From positions 1 through 64,000 of IMG/VR virus record IMGVR_UViG_3300022591_000004: a stretch of DNA of 64,000 nt; one strand, 5' to 3'. Of this stretch, positions 3,746-29,641 are shown in pieces (position 1 is the first letter of the stretch; the number at the start of each line of letters is the position of its first letter). The position numbers and the translations under genes were made by a program. The notes beneath the pieces are model-generated. The model ran no database searches, was not told the DNA's origin, and worked only from the letters and a program-made list of their open reading frames with translations. Source of the DNA: a virus.

Positions 3746-4007
3746 ACCTGCACAGTATCACAGGGCGCCGAATTTCATAAACTCGGCTACTACTTCTGCA
3801 CAATGAGCGATACCTGTTACTGACACCTGGCCTCAATCCTGAGAATTGCCTGAATTAACCCTGGGGGGTGTCTGTGTGTGTAGATAGCCTGTGGATAACT
3901 CGTTGTGGACAACACGGTGTGGATATGTCGGTGCTTGACACTTATTCAGCCTAGTATTACTGTGCTCTTAGTGGACAACACGGTTCACTAATTAGACGGG
4001 GGACACA
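3746..4007. promoter_or_regulatory. Divergent promoter region with three 14 bp-spaced DnaA-like boxes
   Basis: Gap between divergent operons. Boxes TGTGGATAA (3890), TGTGGACAA (3904) and TGTGGATAT (3918) begin exactly 14 bp apart. The 14-mer GTGGACAACACGGT occurs at 3905-3918 and again at 3971-3984, the second copy at the predicted start point of the rightward transcript. A CTGAGAATT element (3838) shared with later gaps is present, but the long inverted-repeat element is not. Confidence 0.65.
3935..3963 (+). promoter_or_regulatory. Promoter P1 (TTGACA-N17-TACTGT)
   Basis: TTGACA at 3935-3940 and TACTGT at 3958-3963 match the sigma70-like pattern repeated before the other plus-strand operons. 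It drives the 4008-4959 gene set. Confidence 0.6.
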
Positions 4008-4265
4008 ATGGCAAAGGTAGACATGCCAGGCGTTCGTAGCTTGCAGAAGCTATGGACAACTATGGTCGAGCAAGGACACGACCCTATCACAGCGGGTCAG
4101 TGGATTAACGGCGCATTTGGCGCAGATTACGAAATCTGCGACTTCTGCAACAAGTACGGCGCGGATGTTTACGAGTACGACATGGGCTCGACCGCAATTT
4201 GCTCGACCTGCGAGGACAACCAACCAACAATCAACGACCTAGTGAAAATGGAGGTGGAGGCGTGA
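4008..4265 (+). CDS. Small zinc-ribbon protein
   Basis: 85 aa with GGGGGA upstream of the ATG. A helical N-terminal half precedes C44-x2-C47 and C65-x2-C68 (ICDFC...ICSTC), a classical treble-clef or ribbon. First gene after promoter P1, so probably expressed early. Function unknown. Confidence 0.7.
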   Translation: MAKVDMPGVRSLQKLWTTMVEQGHDPITAGQWINGAFGADYEICDFCNKYGADVYEYDMGSTAICSTCEDNQPTINDLVKMEVEA

Positions 4266-4438
4266 GCGCCTTCACCTTCCCACGCACCGACAAGACCTAC
4301 AAGGTTACTGTCGAATTCAGCTTCTACGCCGAGGACGAAACCGAGGCGCAGGAAATAATCAAGTACCAGATTCGACGCCCAATCAACACCGACCTAGTTT
4401 CGGTGGACGATGTGACGATGGTCGAGGTTCCCGAGTGA
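4262..4438 (+). CDS. Hypothetical protein, 58 aa
   Basis: GTG start inside the previous stop (GTGA) with AGGTGGAGG upstream; the longer frame that runs back into the preceding gene is rejected. The sequence alternates beta-like segments with an acidic helix (YKVTVEFSFYAEDETEAQEII), a pattern seen in small alpha-beta proteins. Not recognised. Confidence 0.65.
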   Translation: MSAFTFPRTDKTYKVTVEFSFYAEDETEAQEIIKYQIRRPINTDLVSVDDVTMVEVPE

Positions 4439-4578
4439 AGCTAGCTCTAGTGTTGGGGGCGGTTCTCACCGCCCTCATCACACACCTGTTCTTCACCCCT
4501 CACTATGGAAACTGTCAGCCAACTGACATCGGCAAGACCTGTACACTCACTCATTACACTCTCAAGGAAGGCAAATAA
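4435..4578 (+). CDS. Small exported or membrane-anchored protein, 47 aa
   Basis: GTG start overlapping the previous stop. A hydrophobic N-terminal helix (KLALVLGAVLTALITHLFF) is followed by a short exposed tail with two Cys eight residues apart (GNCQPTDIGKTC), suggesting an oxidised loop outside the membrane. Confidence 0.6.
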   Translation: MKLALVLGAVLTALITHLFFTPHYGNCQPTDIGKTCTLTHYTLKEGK

Positions 4579-4580
4579 TC

Positions 4581-4742
4581 ATGGACCCACGATTTACAAT
4601 TGCAGATACTTATAAGAAATTGCAAAAGGCGGGAATTTCTTATAAGGAGTTCGAGGCAGAACTAAACAACTGCGGCGGACCCGAGAACGCTTTTAGAATC
4701 TGCTGGAAGTACCAAGACATGGCAGAGGATTCCTGCGCATGA
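4581..4742 (+). CDS. Hypothetical protein, 53 aa
   Basis: MDPRFTIADTYKKLQKAG... Helical, three Cys (NNCGG, ICWK, DSCA). Starts three bases after the previous stop, with AAGGAAGG upstream. Stop overlaps the next start. Not recognised. Confidence 0.55.
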   Translation: MDPRFTIADTYKKLQKAGISYKEFEAELNNCGGPENAFRICWKYQDMAEDSCA

Positions 4743-4873
4743 TGACCGATTTAGAGTGGATTCTCTTTCAGCTCAATGGAGTTCTGACGGGAAGCCTGAC
4801 CACCGAGCAGAAGCTCGCCAAGCTCACCGAGCTAGTGGCTAATTGCTCAGAGGAGATAGGGCTAAGCGTATGA
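4739..4873 (+). CDS. Hypothetical helical protein, 44 aa
   Basis: Two tandem ATG codons; either may be used. MTDLEWILFQLNGVLTGS... is a leucine-rich helical peptide with an acidic end. Overlaps both neighbours by four bases. Not recognised. Confidence 0.5.
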   Translation: MMTDLEWILFQLNGVLTGSLTTEQKLAKLTELVANCSEEIGLSV

Positions 4874-4959
4874 TTATCCTAGTAGCGATAGCAGTAGGAG
4901 TCTTCGGGGGGTGGCTAGGCTCACTAGCCCCCTCAGTAGAGGATGAAGCACAGATTTAG
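4870..4959 (+). CDS. Membrane micropeptide, 29 aa
   Basis: MIILVAIAVGVFGGWLGSL... then an acidic tail. One glycine-containing hydrophobic helix. ATGA overlap with the upstream gene, and the terminator begins 20 bases after its stop, so it closes the P1 operon. Confidence 0.5.
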   Translation: MIILVAIAVGVFGGWLGSLAPSVEDEAQI

Positions 4960-4978
4960 CCCCCGCTAAAACGACAAG

Positions 4979-5012
4979 CCCGAGAGCCGTTCCTCTCGGG
5001 TTTTGTTGTTTC
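4979..5012 (+). terminator. Rho-independent terminator of the P1 operon
   Basis: Stem CCCGAGAG / CTCTCGGG with a six-base loop, followed by TTTTGTTGTTTCTT. Confidence 0.85.
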
Positions 5013-5046
5013 TTGAGACTTTCCTGAGAATTACCTGAGCGCAAAA

Positions 5047-5127
5047 GTTTGTGTTGGTGGTTGATATGTGTGGTGTATGTGCCTATGCCAGCCAGCGGCT
5101 TGTCTCGCTACGCTCGCCAACACAAAC
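5047..5127. repeat. Inverted-repeat element, copy 1 (81 bp)
   Basis: Left arm GTTTGTGTTGG at 5047-5057 and right arm CCAACACAAAC at 5117-5127 are perfect 11 bp complements. The interior holds TTGATA at 5061, ATGCCAGCCA near the middle and CTCGCTACGCTCG next to the right arm. The outer flanks (GCGCAAAA before, ATTCGG...CGGACATTTC after) recur in the other copies. Confidence 0.8.
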
Positions 5128-5153
5128 ATTCGGGCAATTCGGACATTTCAGGC

Positions 5154-5190
5154 TGTGGATAAGTCGCTGTGTATAACTAGCTGTGGAGAG
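5154..5190 (+). promoter_or_regulatory. DnaA-box-like array (14 bp spacing)
   Basis: TGTGGATAA (5154), TGTGTATAA (5168) and the degenerate TGTGGAGAG (5182) start exactly 14 bp apart. The first two fit TTATNCACA on the opposite strand. Confidence 0.65.
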
Positions 5191-5199
5191 AGAAGGTAC

Positions 5200-5227
5200 T
5201 TGCATTCTCTACTAATGAGAGTAATGT
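5200..5227 (+). promoter_or_regulatory. Promoter P2 (TTGCAT-N16-TAATGT)
   Basis: Spacing and position after the box array match promoters P3 and P4. It drives the DUF932 gene. The 4960-5274 gap otherwise contains the terminator, the inverted-repeat element and the boxes. Confidence 0.6.
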
Positions 5228-5274
5228 TCCTCTTGTCGCTAAACGGCGAATTTTAATACAGAAAGGCAAGGCTC

Positions 5275-6267
5275 ATGGCTCACGATTTAGAACAGGGTAA
5301 CGGTCAGACCGCATTTGCACTACGCGGAGAACCTGCATGGCACAATCTAGGAACCGTATTCGACAAGGATGCGGACATCACAACGAAGCAAATGTTAGAC
5401 CTCGCACATCTCTCCAATTGGAATGTTCGTCTAGAGCCCGTTTCCTATCCTGAGGGCTACACCACTGTCAAGGACGCTTATTCGGTTGTCCGTAATCACC
5501 CATTCAACGGCAATCCCGATGTTCTGTCGGTCGTAGGCGAGCGCTACAAGGTTGTCCAAAATGAGGAACTCTTCTCATTCGGTGACGGCATGCTAGACGG
5601 TGGCGGGGCATGGGAATCGGCGGGTTCTATCAAGGACGGTCGTGTCGTGTTCGGCTCAATCGTTATTCCGCGCGAATTTATCCTCGACCCTAGCGGAATT
5701 GCCGATAAGACAGTTTCCTATCTGCTTGTCCATACATCACATGACGGCTCGACCGCTCTACAGGCGAATGTAACGCCAATTCGCGTGGTCTGCCAGAATA
5801 CCCTCAATATCGCGCTAGGCTCTAGCAAGCAATCTTTCAAGGTTCGCCACACTCAGACAATCGGCGGACGCATGGAAGAGGCACGTCGTGTACTAGGCTT
5901 AACATTCTCCTACATGGACGATTTCCAGAAGCTGGCGCAAAATCTATTCGAGAGCGAGATTACTAATGCCCAATTCGACAAGCTTGTTGCAGGGCTCTAT
6001 CCAAAGCCTGATGAAGCTAGCAAAATGGCAACCACTAAGTACACCGACAAGCTCGACACCATCCACAATCTCTATAAAGTTGCAGCAACGCAAGACGGAA
6101 TTCGTGGCACGAAATGGGGAGCGCTCAACGCGCTCACAGAACGAGTTGATTATTTCCGTACAAGCCGAACAGGAGACAATAAGTCTCTCATGGCTTCTGC
6201 CAGCGGATTCGACGTCCAGACCAACGCTGAAAAGAACAAGATTCTAAAAGCGGTCATGGCACTGTAA
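5275..6267 (+). CDS. DUF932 (TIGR03299-like) phage/plasmid protein
   Basis: 330 aa. The N-terminus (MAHDLEQGNGQTAFALRGEPAWHNLG) and the centre (YLLVHTSHDGS...VTPIRVVCQNTL) are hallmarks of the DUF932 / phage-plasmid-like TIGR03299 family, found on phages, plasmids and in some hosts near replication genes. Full-length for the family, preceded by AAAGGCAAGG. It is alone between promoter P2 and a hairpin, so independently regulated. Biochemical role unknown; a DNA-repair or replication link is only proposed in the literature for relatives. Confidence 0.9.
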   Translation: MAHDLEQGNGQTAFALRGEPAWHNLGTVFDKDADITTKQMLDLAHLSNWNVRLEPVSYPEGYTTVKDAYSVVRNHPFNGNPDVLSVVGERYKVVQNEELFSFGDGMLDGGGAWESAGSIKDGRVVFGSIVIPREFILDPSGIADKTVSYLLVHTSHDGSTALQANVTPIRVVCQNTLNIALGSSKQSFKVRHTQTIGGRMEEARRVLGLTFSYMDDFQKLAQNLFESEITNAQFDKLVAGLYPKPDEASKMATTKYTDKLDTIHNLYKVAATQDGIRGTKWGALNALTERVDYFRTSRTGDNKSLMASASGFDVQTNAEKNKILKAVMAL

Positions 6268-6278
6268 CAAGATAAGTA

Positions 6279-6302
6279 GAGGGGCGGGGAAACCCGCCTC
6301 TC
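6279..6302 (+). terminator. GAAA-loop hairpin after the DUF932 gene
   Basis: GAGGGGCGGG / CCCGCCTCTC pairs fully (one G-U) around GAAA. No T-run follows, so it may stabilise the 3' end rather than terminate by itself. Confidence 0.55.
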
Positions 6303-6340
6303 ACCTAATTCTCAGACACGCCCGAGCGCGTTGCAGAAAA

Positions 6341-6420
6341 GTTTGTGTTGGGTGGCTGGGTGGGGTGGTGGTTGTTTCCTTTAATACTTTCGTAGCTCGC
6401 TTACTCGCTTCGACACAAAC
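6341..6420. repeat. Inverted-repeat element, copy 2 (80 bp)
   Basis: Left arm GTTTGTGTTGG (6341-6351) and right arm CGACACAAAC (6411-6420). The interior is G-rich on the left, with CTCGCTTACTCGC beside the right arm as in copy 1, so it has the same orientation as copy 1. Followed by ATTCGCAAAACGGACATTTC. Confidence 0.75.
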
Positions 6421-6444
6421 ATTCGCAAAACGGACATTTCGGGC

Positions 6445-6478
6445 TGTGGATAACCTGGTGTGGATAAAGATATACACA
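6445..6478 (+). promoter_or_regulatory. DnaA-box-like array
   Basis: TGTGGATAA at 6445 and 6459 (14 bp apart) and an opposed ATATACACA at 6470. Confidence 0.65.
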
Positions 6479-6490
6479 GGGCGAGAGTTA

Positions 6491-6518
6491 TTGACTTCTA
6501 CGATAACAAGAGTATTGT
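6491..6518 (+). promoter_or_regulatory. Promoter P3 (TTGACT-N16-TATTGT)
   Basis: Followed by a leader CTCTGTAAGGCAAATAAC almost identical to the leader after P4, including a second purine-rich GAAGGAGAG ribosome site. Confidence 0.65.
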
Positions 6519-6556
6519 CCTCTCTGTAAGGCAAATAACTACTACAGAAGGAGAGA

Positions 6557-6724
6557 ATGATGATTCAGTCACCATTCACGTCACAGGAAGTCCGTAAGCT
6601 GTTCGTCCTCGTCTGCGCTTCACCAGATATTGAGATGAAGGAAGCCATCGAGCTTCTCAACAAGTTGGATTCTTTGCATATCGCCACCAAGGGCGTCGAA
6701 TATTATGAAAGTCAGGGGGTGTGA
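6557..6724 (+). CDS. Hypothetical protein, 55 aa
   Basis: Tandem ATG starts after GAAGGAGAG. MIQSPFTSQEVRKLFVLV... is largely helical with a C-terminal charged strand. Not recognised. First gene after P3. Confidence 0.6.
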   Translation: MMIQSPFTSQEVRKLFVLVCASPDIEMKEAIELLNKLDSLHIATKGVEYYESQGV

Positions 6725-6725
6725 G

Positions 6726-7007
6726 GTGAAAACACTGGCGGATTTTAAGCGCGCACTTACTGTAGGCACTGAAGTAGAACTACTTAGCTTAGCAAAGAAC
6801 GTCAAGGGTGGGCGCTTGCAGGTTGGTATGGTGCGCCGAGTCACCAAGGCAGATACCACTGGCGTGTACTTGCAAACCGAAGGACTCGAAGGTCGAGGTT
6901 CATTCTTAGGTTGGGATAAGGCTAAAGATTGGGTGTTTGACGGCGATAGGGCTATTAATATCGTCTGGGGCTATTCATACCGAGTATTGAATAAAGAGGG
7001 CAGCTAA
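6726..7007 (+). CDS. Hypothetical beta-rich protein, 93 aa
   Basis: GTG start (VKTLADFKRALTVGTEVELL) two bases after the preceding stop and behind AGGGGG; the slightly longer ATG frame overlaps the upstream gene and is less likely. Its barrel-like pattern (GTEVELL...GRLQVGMVRRVTKA) and the WDKAKDWVF segment suggest a small beta protein. Not assigned. Confidence 0.65.
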   Translation: MKTLADFKRALTVGTEVELLSLAKNVKGGRLQVGMVRRVTKADTTGVYLQTEGLEGRGSFLGWDKAKDWVFDGDRAINIVWGYSYRVLNKEGS

Positions 7008-7021
7008 TACTTAGCTAAGTT

Positions 7022-7039
7022 GAGGGGCGAAAGCCCCTC
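7022..7039 (+). terminator. GAAA-loop hairpin after the P3 operon
   Basis: GAGGGGC-GAAA-GCCCCTC, perfect 7 bp. No T-run. Followed by AATTCTCAG, as after the 6279 hairpin, so the two 3' ends share a design. Confidence 0.6.
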
Positions 7040-7058
7040 AGCCAATTCTCAGGAAAAT

Positions 7059-7138
7059 GTTTGTGTTGACCGAGCGAGCAGCGAGGGCAATCAGTGGCTG
7101 GCATGGGCATATACCTGCATATATCAACCGACACAAAC
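7059..7138. repeat. Inverted-repeat element, copy 3 (80 bp), interior inverted
   Basis: Left arm GTTTGTGTTG (7059-7068) and right arm CGACACAAAC (7129-7138). Read on the plus strand the interior begins CGAGCGAGCAGCGAG and ends TATATCAAC; its reverse complement (GTTGATATAT...CATGCCAGCCA...CTCGCTGCTCGCTCG) aligns along its length with the interior of copy 1. So the middle lies in the opposite orientation although the outer flanks keep theirs. Confidence 0.75.
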
Positions 7139-7165
7139 AATTCGGACATTTCAGACAAATTGGGC

Positions 7166-7199
7166 TGTGGATAACTCGTTGGGGATAAAGTTATACACA
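7166..7199 (+). promoter_or_regulatory. DnaA-box-like array
   Basis: TGTGGATAA (7166) and TGGGGATAA (7180), 14 bp apart, then an opposed perfect TTATACACA at 7191. Confidence 0.65.
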
Positions 7200-7211
7200 A
7201 GGGGAGAGTAT

Positions 7212-7239
7212 TTGACATATCTATAGAAAGCGATAGTCT
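7212..7239 (+). promoter_or_regulatory. Promoter P4 (TTGACA-N16-TAGTCT)
   Basis: The -35 hexamer is consensus. The leader CTCTTTGTAAGGCAAACAACCAC matches that of P3. It drives 7287-8018. Confidence 0.65.
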
Positions 7240-7286
7240 TCTCTTTGTAAGGCAAACAACCACTCTAGAAAGAGAGTAAAGGCAAA

Positions 7287-7535
7287 ATGGCAAAACTTCT
7301 ACCACGCTTTGAGGTAAAGGTTACCGCAGAGTATCACTACGAGTCCGAGGACTTTGATACCGAAGGCAACCTTACCCGCGAAACTGTCGAGAATGACGCA
7401 AGTATCGCTTTCTACGACAATGTTAATAATGCCGAAATCTACTCAACCGAGATTACCAAGTCTTGGTTCGAGTGCGAGGATTGCGGCGAAGATGATGTCG
7501 AAGAAGACCACGAGTGCGAAAACGAGGCTGAGTAA
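7287..7535 (+). CDS. Acidic hypothetical protein with a CxxC-type tail
   Basis: 82 aa, strongly acidic. A beta-like first part (FEVKVTAEYHYESEDFD) is followed by a C-terminal WFECEDCGEDD...HEC that could bind zinc through C-x2-C plus HxC. The stop overlaps the next start. Not recognised. Confidence 0.65.
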   Translation: MAKLLPRFEVKVTAEYHYESEDFDTEGNLTRETVENDASIAFYDNVNNAEIYSTEITKSWFECEDCGEDDVEEDHECENEAE

Positions 7536-7768
7536 TGACACGCAAGGACTACCAGCTTATTGCTAAGACTATTTCAGACTTCCGCTACGAGGGTACGGAG
7601 TTCCGTGACCCTGTAATGATTGCCCTGATTGACCGTCTTGGGGCGCGTATTTGTGAGGCGTTGGAAAACGAAAATCCGCGCTTTAACGCCGATAAATTTC
7701 TAGAGGCTATGGAATACGGAAAACGCCCTACCACCGATGAAATCGTCATGCGAGCGTGGGGGTCGTAA
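7535..7768 (+). CDS. Conserved small phage protein (MTRKDYQLIA family)
   Basis: 77 aa. MTRKDYQLIAKTI...CEALENENPRFNADKFLEAM is a pattern I recall from many small phage proteins of unrelated hosts; the conserved ENPRF(N/D) is present. Entirely helical. Function unknown. The start overlaps the previous stop (TAATG). Confidence 0.75.
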   Translation: MTRKDYQLIAKTISDFRYEGTEFRDPVMIALIDRLGARICEALENENPRFNADKFLEAMEYGKRPTTDEIVMRAWGS

Positions 7769-7821
7769 TGAAAACCACCGAAGACTACTACAAGGCTTAT
7801 TACAAGGGAGAAATAGCGTGA
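7768..7821 (+). CDS. Micropeptide, 17 aa
   Basis: MKTTEDYYKAYYKGEIA begins in TAATG with the preceding stop and ends in GTGA with the next start. Such exact bridging suggests it is translated, possibly only to carry ribosomes to the next gene. Confidence 0.4.
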   Translation: MKTTEDYYKAYYKGEIA

Positions 7822-8018
7822 AAAAAGGCATTAAAGAAGTCCTTCAGATTGCTCTAGAAGAAGCTGACGACTATAGCTACGTCCTAACACAGGAACAAGC
7901 CGCAGAACATCGGGGCGCAAAATACGCTCTATACGAGGTTTATCAGTATCTCTTTGATGAGTCATACCAGACCGAGCGTGACAAGCGCCTAGAGGCTAAA
8001 CAGAGTTCTCCCGCGTAA
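7818..8018 (+). CDS. Hypothetical helical protein, 66 aa
   Basis: GTG start behind AAGGGAG; the ATG of the longer frame lies in the upstream gene and is rejected. KKGIKEVLQIALEEADD...RDKRLEAKQ is helical and charged. Last gene of the P4 operon. Not recognised. Confidence 0.6.
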   Translation: MKKGIKEVLQIALEEADDYSYVLTQEQAAEHRGAKYALYEVYQYLFDESYQTERDKRLEAKQSSPA

Positions 8019-8054
8019 GTTATTTGCCTTTCTGACGCGGTTGAGATGGGACAT

Positions 8055-8090
8055 AGAGCGGAGACTACCCTTCGCTCTTTGTTCATTTTA
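8055..8090 (+). terminator. Terminator of the P4 operon
   Basis: AGAGCG / CGCTCT stem with a 12-base loop followed by TTGTTCATTTT. Confidence 0.6.
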
Positions 8091-8118
8091 GTAGAAAATT
8101 CGCGCCTAAGCGCCAAAA

Positions 8119-8218
8119 GTTTGTGTTGGTCACTCCTTGATATGGTCATATATGTGCATAATGTGCTGTGCTGGCTATCACACGTGACAAAACCCACCCA
8201 CCCGCTACCAACACAAAC
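8119..8218. repeat. Inverted-repeat element, copy 4 (100 bp)
   Basis: Arms GTTTGTGTTGG(T) at 8119-8130 and (A)CCAACACAAAC at 8207-8218 are perfect over 12 bp. The interior starts with CTTGATATGGTCATATATGTG and has GTGCTGGCT in the middle, so it lies in the copy 1 orientation but is about 20 bp longer. Inside is TTGATA (8137) N16 TAATGT (8159), which fits the promoter pattern of this region. Confidence 0.75.
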
Positions 8219-8257
8219 ATTGCCAGCCTTGTCAAATCTGAGAGTTAGCTGAGAGAG

Positions 8258-8280
8258 TTATCCACAGAGAGTTATCCACA
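8258..8280 (-). promoter_or_regulatory. Pair of perfect DnaA boxes
   Basis: TTATCCACA at 8258 and 8272, again 14 bp apart but in the opposite orientation to the other arrays. Confidence 0.7.
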
Positions 8281-8335
8281 GGCTGCGAGCGCCCAAGTGG
8301 GCAAATATCGACAAATTGACATGTAAATAAAGAGA

Positions 8336-8351
8336 TGTTTCACGTGAAACG
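8336..8351. promoter_or_regulatory. parS-like ParB binding site
   Basis: TGTTTCACGTGAAACG differs from the bacterial chromosomal parS consensus TGTTTCACGTGAAACA only at the last base, and its core GTTTCACGTGAAAC is a perfect 14 bp palindrome. ParB (Spo0J) proteins of actinobacteria and firmicutes bind this sequence. Only one copy was found in the window. Confidence 0.85.
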
Positions 8352-8473
8352 CTGATTCGGCTACTATTTAGCTGAGTAGAGAGAGTAAGCGGTGGTAAGA
8401 CCAGATTGCTGGGGGTATCCCGAGTGTTCCTATCGCATAGCCTGAGAAGAAGCTGAGTGAGAGCTGAGAGAGA

Positions 8474-8510
8474 CTATCCCTATCCCCTTCCCTATCCCTA
8501 TACCTATATA
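8474..8510. repeat. CCCTAT-type short tandem repeats
   Basis: CTATCCCTATCCCC is followed by TTCCCTATCCCTATACC, giving four or five irregular pyrimidine-rich hexamers next to A/T-rich DNA. Possibly iteron-like or melting-related. Confidence 0.5.
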
Positions 8511-8555
8511 AAGAAAGGCTCAGAATCGCTTAGGCGCGAAATTTTTATAGGGGGT

Positions 8556-8592
8556 TGTGGATAACTGCTTGTGGATAAACACCTGTGGATAA
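8556..8592 (+). promoter_or_regulatory. Three perfect DnaA-like boxes at 14 bp spacing
   Basis: TGTGGATAA at 8556, 8570 and 8584, the most regular array in the window. An A/T-rich ACTATTTATTTATC follows. Confidence 0.75.
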
Positions 8593-8613
8593 CTATTTAT
8601 TTATCGTGGTGTG

Positions 8614-8642
8614 TTGCATTATCCCTTTTTATCCCCTAGTGT
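8614..8642 (+). promoter_or_regulatory. Promoter P5 (TTGCAT-N17-TAGTGT)
   Basis: Lies just after the triple box array and ahead of the long operon from 8730 to 12949. Same hexamer style as P1-P4. Confidence 0.55.
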
Positions 8643-8729
8643 CCTGTCTATCAGGTTATGAGTGATAACAAGTAAGCGATTAGGTAGCCCTAGTCCACCT
8701 GATACACCTACCACAACGAAAGGCAACAC

Positions 8730-10984: not shown

Positions 10985-11059
10985 ATGAATAACGACGAAA
11001 ATGGTCTAAACATATCTCAGTTTAATATCATAGATATAAAAGTGGAAGCAGGAGAATAA
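10985..11059 (+). CDS. Micropeptide, 24 aa
   Basis: MNNDENGLNISQFNIIDIK... with AAGGAG upstream of the ATG and a TAATG overlap with the HTH gene. Could be a leader peptide for the regulator. Confidence 0.45.
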   Translation: MNNDENGLNISQFNIIDIKVEAGE

Positions 11060-11223
11060 TGGAGAAGTTTTATACACCCGCGCAGGTAGCCGAGGCTATG
11101 TCTGTCACAAGAGAGACTATCTATAAGCTGATTAAAGAGGGCAAACTGAACTCATATAAGTTTGGCGGAATGGTACGCATATCAGAGTCACAACTAAGAG
11201 AAGCATTGGAGAGTACCAAGTGA
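11059..11223 (+). CDS. Excisionase/MerR-type helix-turn-helix protein
   Basis: 54 aa: FYTPAQVAEAMSVTRETIYKLI then GKLNSYKFGGMVRISESQL, the winged HTH of the excisionase family (HTH_17), with the recognition helix around residues 16-26 and a C-terminal wing. It would bind DNA as a regulator or recombination directionality factor. No integrase or invertase is seen in the window. AGGAG before the ATG. Confidence 0.8.
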   Translation: MEKFYTPAQVAEAMSVTRETIYKLIKEGKLNSYKFGGMVRISESQLREALESTK

Positions 11224-15160: not shown

Positions 15161-16633
15161 TCAGCCTTCGCTGATATCTTTAATAATTTTGGTGGTCTGC
15201 TCTTCATTTAAGCCGCCGTTTGGCAGCTCTCGAAGGGCTTGCGCCTTGTCTCCAAAGATGTTAGAAAGCACACCAGCAGACCCATTTTTTGCCTCTACAG
15301 TCATGCGAATAAACGAGGCTGAGTCGTCCAAATCCTTGGTAGTTTTGATGAGCTTAAACAATCTGTCAATCTCTTGGGAAACGTTTGGGTCTGCGTATCC
15401 ACCGTTCATTTCTTCAGTAAAACGCATAAAAGCGACTCTTTGACCCTGCATTTCAATCATTGCGTTAATCAAACTCTTAAGTTGGTCTTTAGTCTTTACC
15501 TCAATAGGAAGGTTGAAAGCGCACATTGTTTGCGGCTTAAAAGCAGGGCAGTTGGCGGCTACAAAACAGGTATCGCACTGGCGAATTGTGCTACTTTGCG
15601 AGCGCACAACAGGAACGTCTTTGATGATGTCTTGACCATCTTCATCGGTCTCTACAACGGTCTTAAAGTCGTATCCGAAGACGGGTAAATTGCCCATTTC
15701 TTCTGGATTTCGGCTCTCAACTTTCCGCATGCCAATACCCTTGTTATCGCTTACGCTGGGGGTAGTTTCCCCACTATCCTCCACATCGCTCCACTCGCTG
15801 TTATGCGATAGGAAGCCGTCTTCTGCGCCACTCATGTTCATCCTCGCTTCGTATTGTTCGTATGACCATACAGCCAGACGACAGACTTCTTGTGGGTCAT
15901 CTTCCATAATCAGGTCGTAGCTCAAGCCCGCCTTTTCATACACCTTGGCGTATCGTACCCGAGCTTGCTCCTTCATACTCTTGTTGTATCTAACAAGCTT
16001 AGTACCGTCCCAGACAATCGTTTCACCGTGGAGCATGGGAGCCAGCCATGACAGGGTACTGGCGGTCTCTACCTTGACCTGACGCAGGTTGTAGGGCTTA
16101 GCGGTGTTTATGGCGTGGAAGCGGGTTCCTCGGGCTGTATAGCCCCGTGTAAGGGCGGCTAGCTGGGTCTCGTGCTCAATGTCGTCACCCATGATTCCTA
16201 TGTCTAGGTAGTGCTCGACCATCTTCTTAAAACCGTCTATGCCTGTCTGGGGCTGCCAAACTGGTTGGAACTTGGAGGGCGGAACTTCATTCCAGCAGGT
16301 CTTCCTCTGCTCTGCAATAAACTCAGGAGTGAGCATGGGGTGGACAACCTCATTAAAGCTCACAATCCTGTCTATGTTATTGGCGATGAACTCCTCGTAC
16401 AGGGCGCAAAATTCTTCTAGCTCATCCTGTGTGAGCTTTTCGACCTTGGGGATACCTGCATGGGCGTAGATATGGGTATCGGGCGTAAAGTAATTCTCTA
16501 AAAGGTATGCCTTAGTTTTGGGTAACCCACGACGATATAGGCGCCAGAAACTAACCCCAACATGGTTGGCGGTGGTGGACTCTAGAAGGGTACGGTTGGA
16601 TGGAACTTCCGCACCTAAGTAAATGATTCGCAT
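15161..16633 (-). CDS. Conserved phage protein with a C-terminal four-Cys cluster
   Basis: 490 aa. The first 260 residues (MRIIYLGAEVPSNRTLLES..., later TRFHAINTAKPYNLRQ and HGETIVWDGTKLVRY) form a conserved domain that I recall in large actinobacteriophages; the layout hints at a TIM-barrel, as in tRNA-guanine-transglycosylase-like phage enzymes, without proof. After an acidic linker, CDTCFVAANCPAF...MC could hold zinc or an iron-sulfur cluster. The start overlaps the stop of the HAD-like gene. Confidence 0.7.
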   Translation of the reverse strand: MRIIYLGAEVPSNRTLLESTTANHVGVSFWRLYRRGLPKTKAYLLENYFTPDTHIYAHAGIPKVEKLTQDELEEFCALYEEFIANNIDRIVSFNEVVHPMLTPEFIAEQRKTCWNEVPPSKFQPVWQPQTGIDGFKKMVEHYLDIGIMGDDIEHETQLAALTRGYTARGTRFHAINTAKPYNLRQVKVETASTLSWLAPMLHGETIVWDGTKLVRYNKSMKEQARVRYAKVYEKAGLSYDLIMEDDPQEVCRLAVWSYEQYEARMNMSGAEDGFLSHNSEWSDVEDSGETTPSVSDNKGIGMRKVESRNPEEMGNLPVFGYDFKTVVETDEDGQDIIKDVPVVRSQSSTIRQCDTCFVAANCPAFKPQTMCAFNLPIEVKTKDQLKSLINAMIEMQGQRVAFMRFTEEMNGGYADPNVSQEIDRLFKLIKTTKDLDDSASFIRMTVEAKNGSAGVLSNIFGDKAQALRELPNGGLNEEQTTKIIKDISEG

Positions 16634-25904: not shown

Positions 25905-26053
25905 TATCCAGCTCGCTTAGCTGCACGGACCTTTAGCTTGGCTGGTGAATAGCCGCCTACGGTCTTACCCTTTTTAACGTTAGTCTTAGGGTTCTTCTTA
26001 GATGCCTTGCCGTTTGGACGGGCATCGTTTCTATTTCCTTTAGCTTTAGCCAT
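25904..26053 (-). CDS. Very basic small protein, 49 aa
   Basis: MAKAKGNRNDARPNGKASKK... about one third Lys/Arg and no acidic cluster. TAATG overlaps at both ends with RuvC and FmdB genes. Likely binds nucleic acid; composition resembles ribosomal-protein tails or packaged DNA-condensing peptides. Confidence 0.6.
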   Translation of the reverse strand: MAKAKGNRNDARPNGKASKKNPKTNVKKGKTVGGYSPAKLKVRAAKRAG

Positions 26054-26604
26054 TATCTCTCCCTGAACTTGGGGTCTTGTAGTTTAGTATACACATCCTT
26101 TTCGTACTCCAACTCCGCTGAACCTGAAACAAGCTTAGCTAAGGCGTAGGAGTCTGCAGCATTGTCATCGCTAATGTCTGCTCCCCACTTCTTAAATACG
26201 TATAGGAGCATTTGGCTTTTAGATATACCGTTGCCTTTGCCTGTCACGTATTTCTTCAAGTTAGTGGGAGGGACAATAAGGGGATAAACGCCAAATTCAT
26301 ACATGGTCATCTTGACCACTGCGCCAAGCTCTCCCAGCATATTTGCCATCTGAGAACCAAAAGCATAACCCTCCATGGCGGCATCTACAATTTCATACTG
26401 GTATAGAACATCCATCATAAAGCCCTGAATATTTTTTAGGCGCTGAACGCCTGCACCTTCAGCTTTATATACAATGCTGTAGTAATCAGTCTTGTTCTCT
26501 GCGTCTAGGGCTGTTATGGCAAATCCACTATAGGACTGGTCAATACCTATGTAGACAGGCTTGCCTTCTACCAACCCGCCATTAAAAAGCTTAGGCTTTG
26601 CCAT
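26053..26604 (-). CDS. RuvC-like Holliday junction resolvase
   Basis: 183 aa. RNase H-fold acidic residues are visible: D22 in YIGIDQSYSG, E78 in AAMEGYAFG, and the D146/D147...D151 group in SDDNAADSYALA. It would cut four-way junctions made during recombination-dependent replication and packaging. Followed and preceded by overlapping genes; the Hjc-like nuclease upstream may have a related job. Confidence 0.88.
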   Translation of the reverse strand: MAKPKLFNGGLVEGKPVYIGIDQSYSGFAITALDAENKTDYYSIVYKAEGAGVQRLKNIQGFMMDVLYQYEIVDAAMEGYAFGSQMANMLGELGAVVKMTMYEFGVYPLIVPPTNLKKYVTGKGNGISKSQMLLYVFKKWGADISDDNAADSYALAKLVSGSAELEYEKDVYTKLQDPKFRER

Positions 26605-28276: not shown

Positions 28277-28593
28277 GTGCACTCCTGAATATTCTGGCGA
28301 AGTTCCAGGAAGTCGTCTTCTAAAAGCATTACATAATTCTCGTTGTTTAGACTAATACCTAATACGGGCATTCGGCTATCAAGAATTGCTTCGTTGACAA
28401 TCTTCTCCAAAACTGTCGCTTTGACAGTGAAGGATGCTTTGCCCGTCCACTTATGTTCTATAAGTAAATCGCTACTTCGGACATCGCCTTTACGATTCCA
28501 AAAAGCTCCGCTAGCAGCTGTACGCTTGCCATCGATAGCTTTTGCTAATCGTGCCTCATGCTTCTTAGACTGCTTTTGTCCTTCACTCCTCAT
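28249..28593 (-). CDS. Hjc/Hjr-like PD-(D/E)XK nuclease
   Basis: 114 aa. An N-terminal helix with QSKKHEARLAKAI, then GDVRSSDLLIEHKWT giving the D...E-x-K triad, a VKATVLEKIVNEAI helix and a VLGISL strand. This compact order matches archaeal-type Holliday junction resolvases and small phage endonucleases. Its start lies inside the recA end. Could be a second junction-cleaving enzyme beside the RuvC-like protein. Confidence 0.75.
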   Translation of the reverse strand: MRSEGQKQSKKHEARLAKAIDGKRTAASGAFWNRKGDVRSSDLLIEHKWTGKASFTVKATVLEKIVNEAILDSRMPVLGISLNNENYVMLLEDDFLELRQNIQECTCRTKAQAT

Positions 28594-29641
28594 CGGAGTA
28601 TTCGCCTACAAACTTTGACCCCGCTTTAATGGAGTCTAGTACGTCGCGCTCTAGGGCTTCTTTCAGGTCTATCTCTTCCCGTATAGAGCCAAGCATACCA
28701 TCTGCCCCTTGCCACTGGCGACCTGCGTACCGATAATAGGCTCCTGCGCGTGTTATGACCTTGTTGATGATTCCCATAGCAACTATCTCTTTGGCGAAGT
28801 CATAATTACCGCGGTCAACCACTCCCCCAGGGGCAAAATAGAAGTCAATGAAGGCGGTCTGCTGTGGGGGAGCGGACTTATTCTTCAGGGTGCGAATCTT
28901 GATGGTCTGTCCCACACGGTGCTTATCCTGACCTGTGCCTTCTTCAATCCAGTCATCGCGCTTAATTTCAATTCGAGTAAAGAAGGCGTAATCCTTGCCC
29001 AGTCCACCTGGGGTGGTGCGTGGGTCTCCATACATAACGCCAATCTTGGAGCGCCACTGGTTAATCATAATGCCGATAAAAGGGCGTTCAGACTCTGTGA
29101 GGGAGCGCTTAGACGCTTTTCCTACCTTACGGAAGAACTTGTTAGTCAGCAGGGCTGTACGACCTACTGTTGACTCTTCCATTTCTTTCTCGTTCTCTGA
29201 GCTAGGAACAAGGGCAGGAAGACTATCAATGACAACGCAATCAACAGCCTTACTCTCGACGATTTCAATGACCGCTTCATAAGCGTCCTCCATGATGTTA
29301 GTTGAGATAACGTAGATGCGCGATAAATCAACCCCACACATCTCAGCGTATGCAGGAACCCATTCTTCTGCGGCTACCCATACAGTAGTGAACTCTGGGT
29401 CTTTAGCTTGGTTTGCTGCAATAGTCTTGAGGGCGATAGCGGTCTTACCGTTGGATGCTTCACCAATAATTTCATGCCATTGGTTGACTGGCCATCCGCC
29501 GCCAAGTGCAACGTCAAAGGACAAAGAACCTGTGGTCATACGTCCGCTAATATCAATAATGTCTTCACCAAGCACAACTGTATCGGCGCCCAGCTTTTTG
29601 TTAATCTTGTTAATTACTTTAAGAAGCTCTGCATTTGCCAT
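28583..29641 (-). CDS. recA: RecA/UvsX recombinase
   Basis: 352 aa. Walker A GEASNGKT near residue 61, Walker B CVVIDSLPALVP, the L1/L2 area MINQWRSKIGVMYGDPRTTPGG, and a RecA-like C-terminus with acidic tail (VGEYSDEE). Slightly divergent from bacterial RecA, closer in style to phage UvsX/RecA. Drives strand exchange with the adjacent nuclease and resolvase genes. Confidence 0.93.
   Translation of the reverse strand: MANAELLKVINKINKKLGADTVVLGEDIIDISGRMTTGSLSFDVALGGGWPVNQWHEIIGEASNGKTAIALKTIAANQAKDPEFTTVWVAAEEWVPAYAEMCGVDLSRIYVISTNIMEDAYEAVIEIVESKAVDCVVIDSLPALVPSSENEKEMEESTVGRTALLTNKFFRKVGKASKRSLTESERPFIGIMINQWRSKIGVMYGDPRTTPGGLGKDYAFFTRIEIKRDDWIEEGTGQDKHRVGQTIKIRTLKNKSAPPQQTAFIDFYFAPGGVVDRGNYDFAKEIVAMGIINKVITRAGAYYRYAGRQWQGADGMLGSIREEIDLKEALERDVLDSIKAGSKFVGEYSDEE

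Follow-up and report, generated by a model that had tools for sequence, protein, structure and literature searches.

A reversed interior in one of four inverted-repeat elements of a phage early-gene array

The array of four elements and its surroundings

The stretch of DNA analysed here (the window) covers bases 1 to 64,000 of a virus record of 95,668 bases, which carries tailed-phage genes and is distantly related to Streptomyces phages of the Karimac kind. It contains four plus-strand elements with inverted end repeats, copy 1 (5047-5127), copy 2 (6341-6420), copy 3 (7059-7138) and copy 4 (8119-8218), each with perfectly matching ends of 8-12 bp. Copy 3, the subject of this analysis, is bounded by GTTTGTGTTG / CGACACAAAC; its left end, GTTTGTGTTGA, occupies 7059-7069 on the plus strand, and its right end 7129-7138 on the minus strand (CGACACAAAC when read on the plus strand). 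Copies 1 and 2 are in the forward orientation, copy 1 being identical at 81 of 81 bases in the relative L129, and copy 2 having the flanks nearest to those of copy 3. Copy 4 is the final element of the array and is followed by about 510 nt without a plus-strand open reading frame (ORF) of at least 40 amino acids.

Upstream of copy 1 stands a terminator-like hairpin (4979-5000, plus strand), which L129 shares and follows with an extra cassette, while upstream of copy 3 a GC-rich hairpin (7022-7039, plus strand) was recognized by eye; the latter has no T-run, and the terminator scan did not flag it. A 20-bp motif is also found upstream of these two copies (5020-5039 and 7037-7056), in opposite orientations but on the same side of each. 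Downstream, every copy is followed by DnaA-type boxes, a single one after copy 1 (5154-5162, plus strand) and copy 3 (7166-7174, plus strand), and two after copy 2 (6445-6467, plus strand) and copy 4 (8258-8280, minus strand). The region 3890-8600 holds 11 of the 16 such boxes of the whole record, many of them separating an element from the early gene that follows. The promoter scan placed a promoter-like pair, TTGACT-16-TATTGT, downstream of copy 2 (6491-6518, plus strand), which is weak by itself since the scan returned 6 in total where 4.1 were expected, and by eye we noted a possible promoter, TTGACA-16-TAGTCT, downstream of copy 3 (7212-7239, plus strand) that falls below the threshold of the scan.

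The cassette behind copy 1 encodes a DUF932 protein (5275-6267, plus strand), which served as the query for relatives. The copy-3 cassette includes a small ORF (7287-7535, plus strand) with no relative among the viral contigs searched; two ORFs of this cassette yielded no relatives in our searches, and a third yielded 58 loci, none of them with an element. The noncoding stretch behind copy 4 (8219-8729) carries DnaA-type boxes on both strands, a palindrome, TTTCACGTGAAA, at 8338 that we take to be parS-like, and a GGCTACT motif that, judged by eye, recurs in several relatives behind the final element; this stretch is possibly an origin or an RNA gene.

Elsewhere in the window, a PHROGs scan covering 40 proteins from a mechanical list of 121 ORFs identified a RuvC-like Holliday junction resolvase (26053-26604, minus strand; phrog_159, E 4.5e-30, with no Pfam match), and a RecA/UvsX-like recombinase is encoded at 28583-29641 (minus strand). 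The protein at 15161-16633 is related to queuine tRNA-ribosyltransferase (phrog_887), which we presume may indicate modified DNA bases. At 71-265 there are two tRNA matches on the minus strand, together with a sub-threshold match to the abiF RNA at 230-265.

The interior of copy 3

An initial annotation, made from the sequence alone, had proposed that copy 3 carries its interior in the orientation opposite to that of copy 1, and the comparison of interiors bears this out. The reverse complement of the copy 3 interior aligns to the interior of copy 1 with a local score of 55, a value reached by none of 2000 dinucleotide shuffles (mean 18.7, sd 3.5, maximum 44), whereas the direct comparison gives a score of 18, which is at chance level (539 of 2000 shuffles as good). 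Among the 12 comparisons possible between the four window copies (6 pairs in both orientations), the reversed match of copies 1 and 3 is the sole outlier. The runners-up are the direct comparisons of copies 2 and 3, 1 and 4, and 3 and 4 (12, 30 and 44 of 2000 shuffles as good, respectively), followed by the reversed comparisons of copies 2 and 3 (49) and 2 and 4 (51).

The outside flanks were likewise said to keep the same order, which holds on one side of the element. Over 150 nt on the downstream side, copies 1, 2 and 3 are similar in direct order (z 15.7 for copies 1 and 2, 13.7 for copies 1 and 3, and 25.4 for copies 2 and 3), but in the 120 nt upstream, likeness is confined to copies 2 and 3 (z 8.6), with copies 1 and 3 at z 0.5. 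Taken together, the interior and flank comparisons therefore describe copy 3 as a reversed, copy-1-like interior of about 58 bp placed inside copy-2-like flanks. Copies 2 and 3 also have in common a T on the left and a G on the right at end position 9, and this single position hints that the reversal may lie inside the ends.

A family of elements with paired arms

DUF932 relatives are encoded in 514 phage records. From the DUF932 protein search we took the best 80 of 136 loci, 27 of which contain one or more elements matching the search pattern, giving 74 distinct elements in the window and these loci; the addition of further contigs raised the number to 103, drawn from 199 raw and 112 unique contexts. 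The same pattern applied to the window and the 80 loci found 98 matches in the real sequence and none when the sequence was reversed without complementing. The ends are conserved across the family (GTTTGTGTTGG / CCAACACAAAC) at end-to-end lengths of 59-143 bp, a conservation that is partly by construction because the defining pattern fixes much of the first 10 positions (the one used to retrieve loci L009-L128 fixes positions 1-8). Chance hits probably account for a few of the 103 elements (for instance L040, L119 and L120), and we therefore prefer the set of 74.

Outside this set, elements of the searched form were found in none of the four DUF932-gene stretches of the isolated phages Karimac (L326), Angela (L562), Trina (L563) and Comrade (L564). 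A pattern search for relatives of the window group matched at least 120 stretches, with both ends in none among the matches listed, and in cellular genomes one end plus a DnaA box matched 22 bacterial or archaeal stretches, with both ends in none of the 22, so that this search singled out no host. We found no description of these elements in the literature searched, which does not prove that none exists.

In the related phages, the elements sit between early-gene cassettes, and the usual order, as judged by eye, runs from the end of a gene through a hairpin or terminator, the element, a DnaA-type box and a promoter-like region to the next gene. A DnaA-type box lies within 110 nt downstream of 50 of the 74 elements. 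Fourteen elements close their array. Behind 10 of these, copy 4 among them, the stretch free of plus-strand ORFs exceeds 300 nt, and behind the other 4 it measures 119-224 nt; most of these last elements belong to a longer, C-rich type, with L130 and L158 as exceptions. Many of the interiors are unlike one another, and only 149 of all pairs among the 74 elements reach even a modest score (at least 28 in one orientation).

The arms, which span 8-30 bp across the family, fall into two classes. In 45 of the 74 elements, all of the outer 18 positions pair (810 of 810 Watson-Crick), the other 29 pair at 9-14 of these positions, and no element lies between the two classes. In the set of 103, the long-arm class (arms of 18-30 bp) numbers 54, with 968 of 972 positions Watson-Crick paired, the rest being one G-T, one A-C and two mismatches. 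The arms also change in concert: where two relatives retain the same long-arm element (28 pairs), 19 changes are two-sided, 11 of them transversions and 8 transitions, and 1 is one-sided, in a count for which at least one member of each pair had to pair at 18 of 18 positions and whose pairs share members, so that they are not independent. Four comparisons with a replaced element were left out of this count; a wider count gives 39 two-sided changes, 20 of which come from these four comparisons and cannot be taken as changes by descent. Two positions near the ends give the same picture across the 74 elements, with position 6 (T-A in 71, G-C in 3) and position 8 (T-A in 65, C-G in 9) free of mismatches even though the pattern allowed them, while end position 9 is mismatched in 9.

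The window copies belong to the short-arm class, and their predicted folding as single-stranded DNA is weak. For copy 1, 9 and 16 of 200 shuffles fold as well on the two strands, and for copy 4, 58 and 11, which is marginal in both cases; copies 2 and 3 fold no better than shuffles (99 to 154 of 200 as good). With short arms and weak folding in the window, the evidence from the arms therefore concerns the family more than copy 3 itself.

As for orientation, a direct match is clear (z above 6) in 65 of the 149 scoring pairs and a reversed match in 11, the strongest reversed pairs being copies 1 and 3 of the window and the pairs formed by slots A and B in L176, L205 and L208. In L208, the interiors of the two slots match at z 13.0 reversed and 2.1 direct, with the downstream flanks in direct order (z 9.6), and in L205 the corresponding values are 10.2, -0.5 and 3.5. 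L205 and L208 are related and so count as one further case, not two. The arrangement that a site-specific inversion would leave, as invoked in the initial annotation, can thus be recognized to the extent that the interior is inverted relative to a paralogue with the downstream flank in place, in the window and in this second case. Within the window group, 4 of the 7 elements examined are forward (two in the window and two in L129) and 3 reversed (copy 3, L129:4741 and L354rc:579).

Orientation at any one slot is, in contrast, stable. Both flanks of the slot are homologous in 40 pairs of relatives; 35 of these have the same orientation, 4 have a replaced element and 1 is too diverged, and none shows a flip. 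When one homologous flank sufficed (154 pairs), 57 pairs agree, 96 have no clear likeness of the interior and a single one is opposite, namely window copy 1 and L129:4741, which share only the upstream terminator. Copies 1 and 2 themselves have the same orientation in L129, the nearest relative. Because inversion appears only in paralogous pairs, insertion in reverse and inversion in place look alike in these data.

Some gains and losses of whole cassettes have their breaks at elements. The distance from the shared terminator to copy 1 is 1042 nt in L129 and 32 nt in the window, with the right break 4 bp before copy 1. An extra cassette in L205 relative to L176 is bounded by breaks in two successive elements, falling in the left arm of the first and in the right arm of the second; between L208 and L176, the breaks lie inside one element and 7 bp past the next, and the stretch in which L148 differs from L160 and L164 begins or ends near an element. 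At L139:5779, compared with L334:709 and L047:13584, an element has been swapped as a unit between flanks that are 97-98% identical. The association of breaks with elements is, at this level of sequence comparison, suggestive. Large indels are, however, also common at element-free places in the same contigs, and the apparent role of the elements as joints may therefore merely reflect their intergenic place.

Possible origins of the reversed interior

On balance, we consider it probable that template switching from arm to arm, or an exchange through the symmetric ends, reversed the interior once, and that the result was then inherited. The interior of copy 3 would have been turned around, or pasted in backwards, a single time, most likely by a DNA polymerase switching templates between the inverted arms, or alternatively by recombination and the exchange of elements via ends that read alike from both sides. 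The agents would be the ordinary proteins of replication and recombination, with no dedicated invertase, and the reversed form would then have been passed on as a fixed variant. The same process could preserve the complementarity of arms whose sequence changes, and could make the elements sites at which whole cassettes are gained or lost. We infer this to be the best-supported molecular route because arm homogenization and spacer inversion are both seen, and the RecA-like and RuvC-like proteins encoded in the record add to its support. Against it stand the confinement of strict arm pairing to the long-arm class, the window arms measuring 8-12 bp, and the lack of a flip at one slot among the 40 pairs.

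Precedents for such a route exist. In yeast, template switching has been described to homogenize the arms of inverted repeats and to invert the spacer between them (PMC8604942), and template switching has been reported to create and maintain hairpins (PMC8794818). The likeness to the yeast case extends to two-sided changes that keep the arms complementary (counted here in long-arm pairs only) and to a reversed spacer between retained flanks (here the downstream flank, in paralogous pairs), with no recombinase needed (PMC8604942). It differs in that the yeast inversions described concern single loci in genes and are short, appearing as substitutions of 2-5 bp, whereas here about 58 bp are reversed, in a phage family with a conserved end sequence and with no flips at one slot in 40 pairs (PMC8604942). 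In a chloroplast spacer, a loop of 25-27 bp bounded by inverted repeats no shorter than 18 bp is described to occur in either orientation (PMC2903610); such hairpin inversions are reported to flip within species at one locus, while here the orientations differ only between slots (PMC2903610). The conservation of the end sequence, which template switching alone leaves unexplained, also counts against this route and suggests a protein that reads the ends. As to function, the elements may act as a border or as a protein-binding site for each early transcription unit.

This consideration leads to the strongest competitor, which we nevertheless regard as rather unlikely, namely that the elements are sites for a regulatory protein. 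The ends would serve as half-sites for a protein, encoded by phage or host, by which each early promoter is looped or insulated, and the interior would be free to drift, to be replaced or to take either direction. Conserved ends, the DnaA-type box within 110 nt of 50 of the 74 elements, the occurrence of either orientation and the weak folding of the window elements all agree with such a site, but it leaves unexplained the arms of 18-30 bp with their perfect pairing and two-sided changes, as well as the wide span of end-to-end lengths (59-143 bp). A partial parallel to the elements is offered by the extended start-associated sequences (ESAS) of cluster K mycobacteriophages, inverted repeats whose function is reported as unknown (PMC3203893). 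Both lie 5' of a subset of non-structural phage genes; the ESAS described there are imperfect repeats of 17 bp with spacers of mostly 4-13 bp and an adjoining 13-bp SAS, unlike the arms of 8-30 bp and longer interiors found here (PMC3203893). The exact SAS motif, GGGATAGGAGCCC, does not occur on either strand of the record. As to function, the elements may act as a border or as a protein-binding site for each early transcription unit.

More tentatively still, one could speculate that the elements are the joints of a cassette system that works without an integrase, in which reversed interiors such as that of copy 3 would be scars of exchange. Conserved ends around a structured, fast-changing middle would then let the replication and recombination proteins of the phage swap entire early transcription units. 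Integron attC sites are structured, sequence-variable borders between exchangeable gene cassettes and have the end motifs RYYYAAC / GTTRRRY. The elements resemble them as structured borders of variable sequence between exchangeable cassettes, and differ in that these motifs are present at the ends of none of the four window copies, that no tyrosine integrase (PF00589) was found in the record, and that the elements lie on the promoter side of the cassette.

An element acting as RNA, its stem serving in read-through transcripts, for instance as a site of processing or as the structure of a 3' end, is improbable. The stems of the relatives are indeed stable (53 elements folded as RNA at 25 C average -53.1 kcal/mol on the gene-sense strand and -51.2 on the opposite one), and by eye terminator-like hairpins lie directly upstream of many elements. 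The two strands, however, fold about equally, G-U pairs are missing, at the DUF932 loci, from all 810 outer positions of the 45 long-arm elements and number 1 of 972 in the wider set, and the promoters appear, again by eye, downstream, which would put the element outside the message of its own gene. Rfam gave no match at the window elements (E up to 1), and in 8 relatives none at gathering score apart from one Phe_leader hit on the opposite strand over an L151 element, which we set aside as hairpin similarity.

Equally improbable, to our reading, is the model put forward in the initial annotation, a set of phase-variable switches in which a site-specific recombinase acting on the ends flips the interior, so that a promoter within it comes to face the downstream genes or to face away from them. 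Conserved inverted ends are to be expected of such a switch, and flanking inverted repeats are present here as in known invertible promoter switches (8-12 bp at the four copies); the interior is reversed with the downstream flanks in place, and both orientations occur among slots. Opposite orientations at the same locus are, however, absent from the 40 pairs of relatives with both flanks homologous. The annotation had seen no invertase, and this stands when the search is extended beyond the window, as the tyrosine (PF00589), serine (PF00239), IS110 (PF01548) and Y1 (PF01797) families have no match in the 95,668-base record, which is possibly incomplete; a host enzyme is a possible source. The protein at 11059-11223, proposed as excisionase-like, is a small DNA-binding protein (54 aa, HTH_17) that need not be an excisionase. 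The promoters expected inside the elements fare no better. The TTGATA boxes pointed out earlier are present, but promoter-like pairs are no commoner in the interiors than after shuffling (on the plus strand 40 of 103 elements and on the minus strand 45; shuffle mean 36, maximum 49). A loose scan finds one plus-strand pair each in copies 3 and 4 and none in copies 1 and 2, so that the single pair of copy 3 does not point back as had been claimed; a stricter scan finds none inside any of the four, and the promoter-like sites near copies 2 and 3 fall outside the elements. The absence of flips, the lack of a recombinase match in the record and the chance level of interior promoters led us to abandon the switch as the main reading.

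Improbable, too, are short MITE-like or REP-like mobile elements inserted in either direction, which would fit the terminal inverted repeats, the several copies, both orientations and the replacement at a slot, but which are at odds with the lack of a clear target-site duplication (longest abutting direct repeats of 0, 0, 3 and 0 nt at the four copies), of a Y1 transposase (PF01797) in the record and of both ends in any of the 22 cellular stretches, with the many unrelated interiors, and with a position that is similar every time.

The elements provide a natural series for tracing, at one kind of site across many related phages, how arms change on both sides, how spacers are inverted and how cassettes are gained or lost. 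A reversed interior between inverted repeats need not imply a phase switch, and the series suggests how the early-gene cassettes of uncultured phages may be swapped without a site-specific recombinase.
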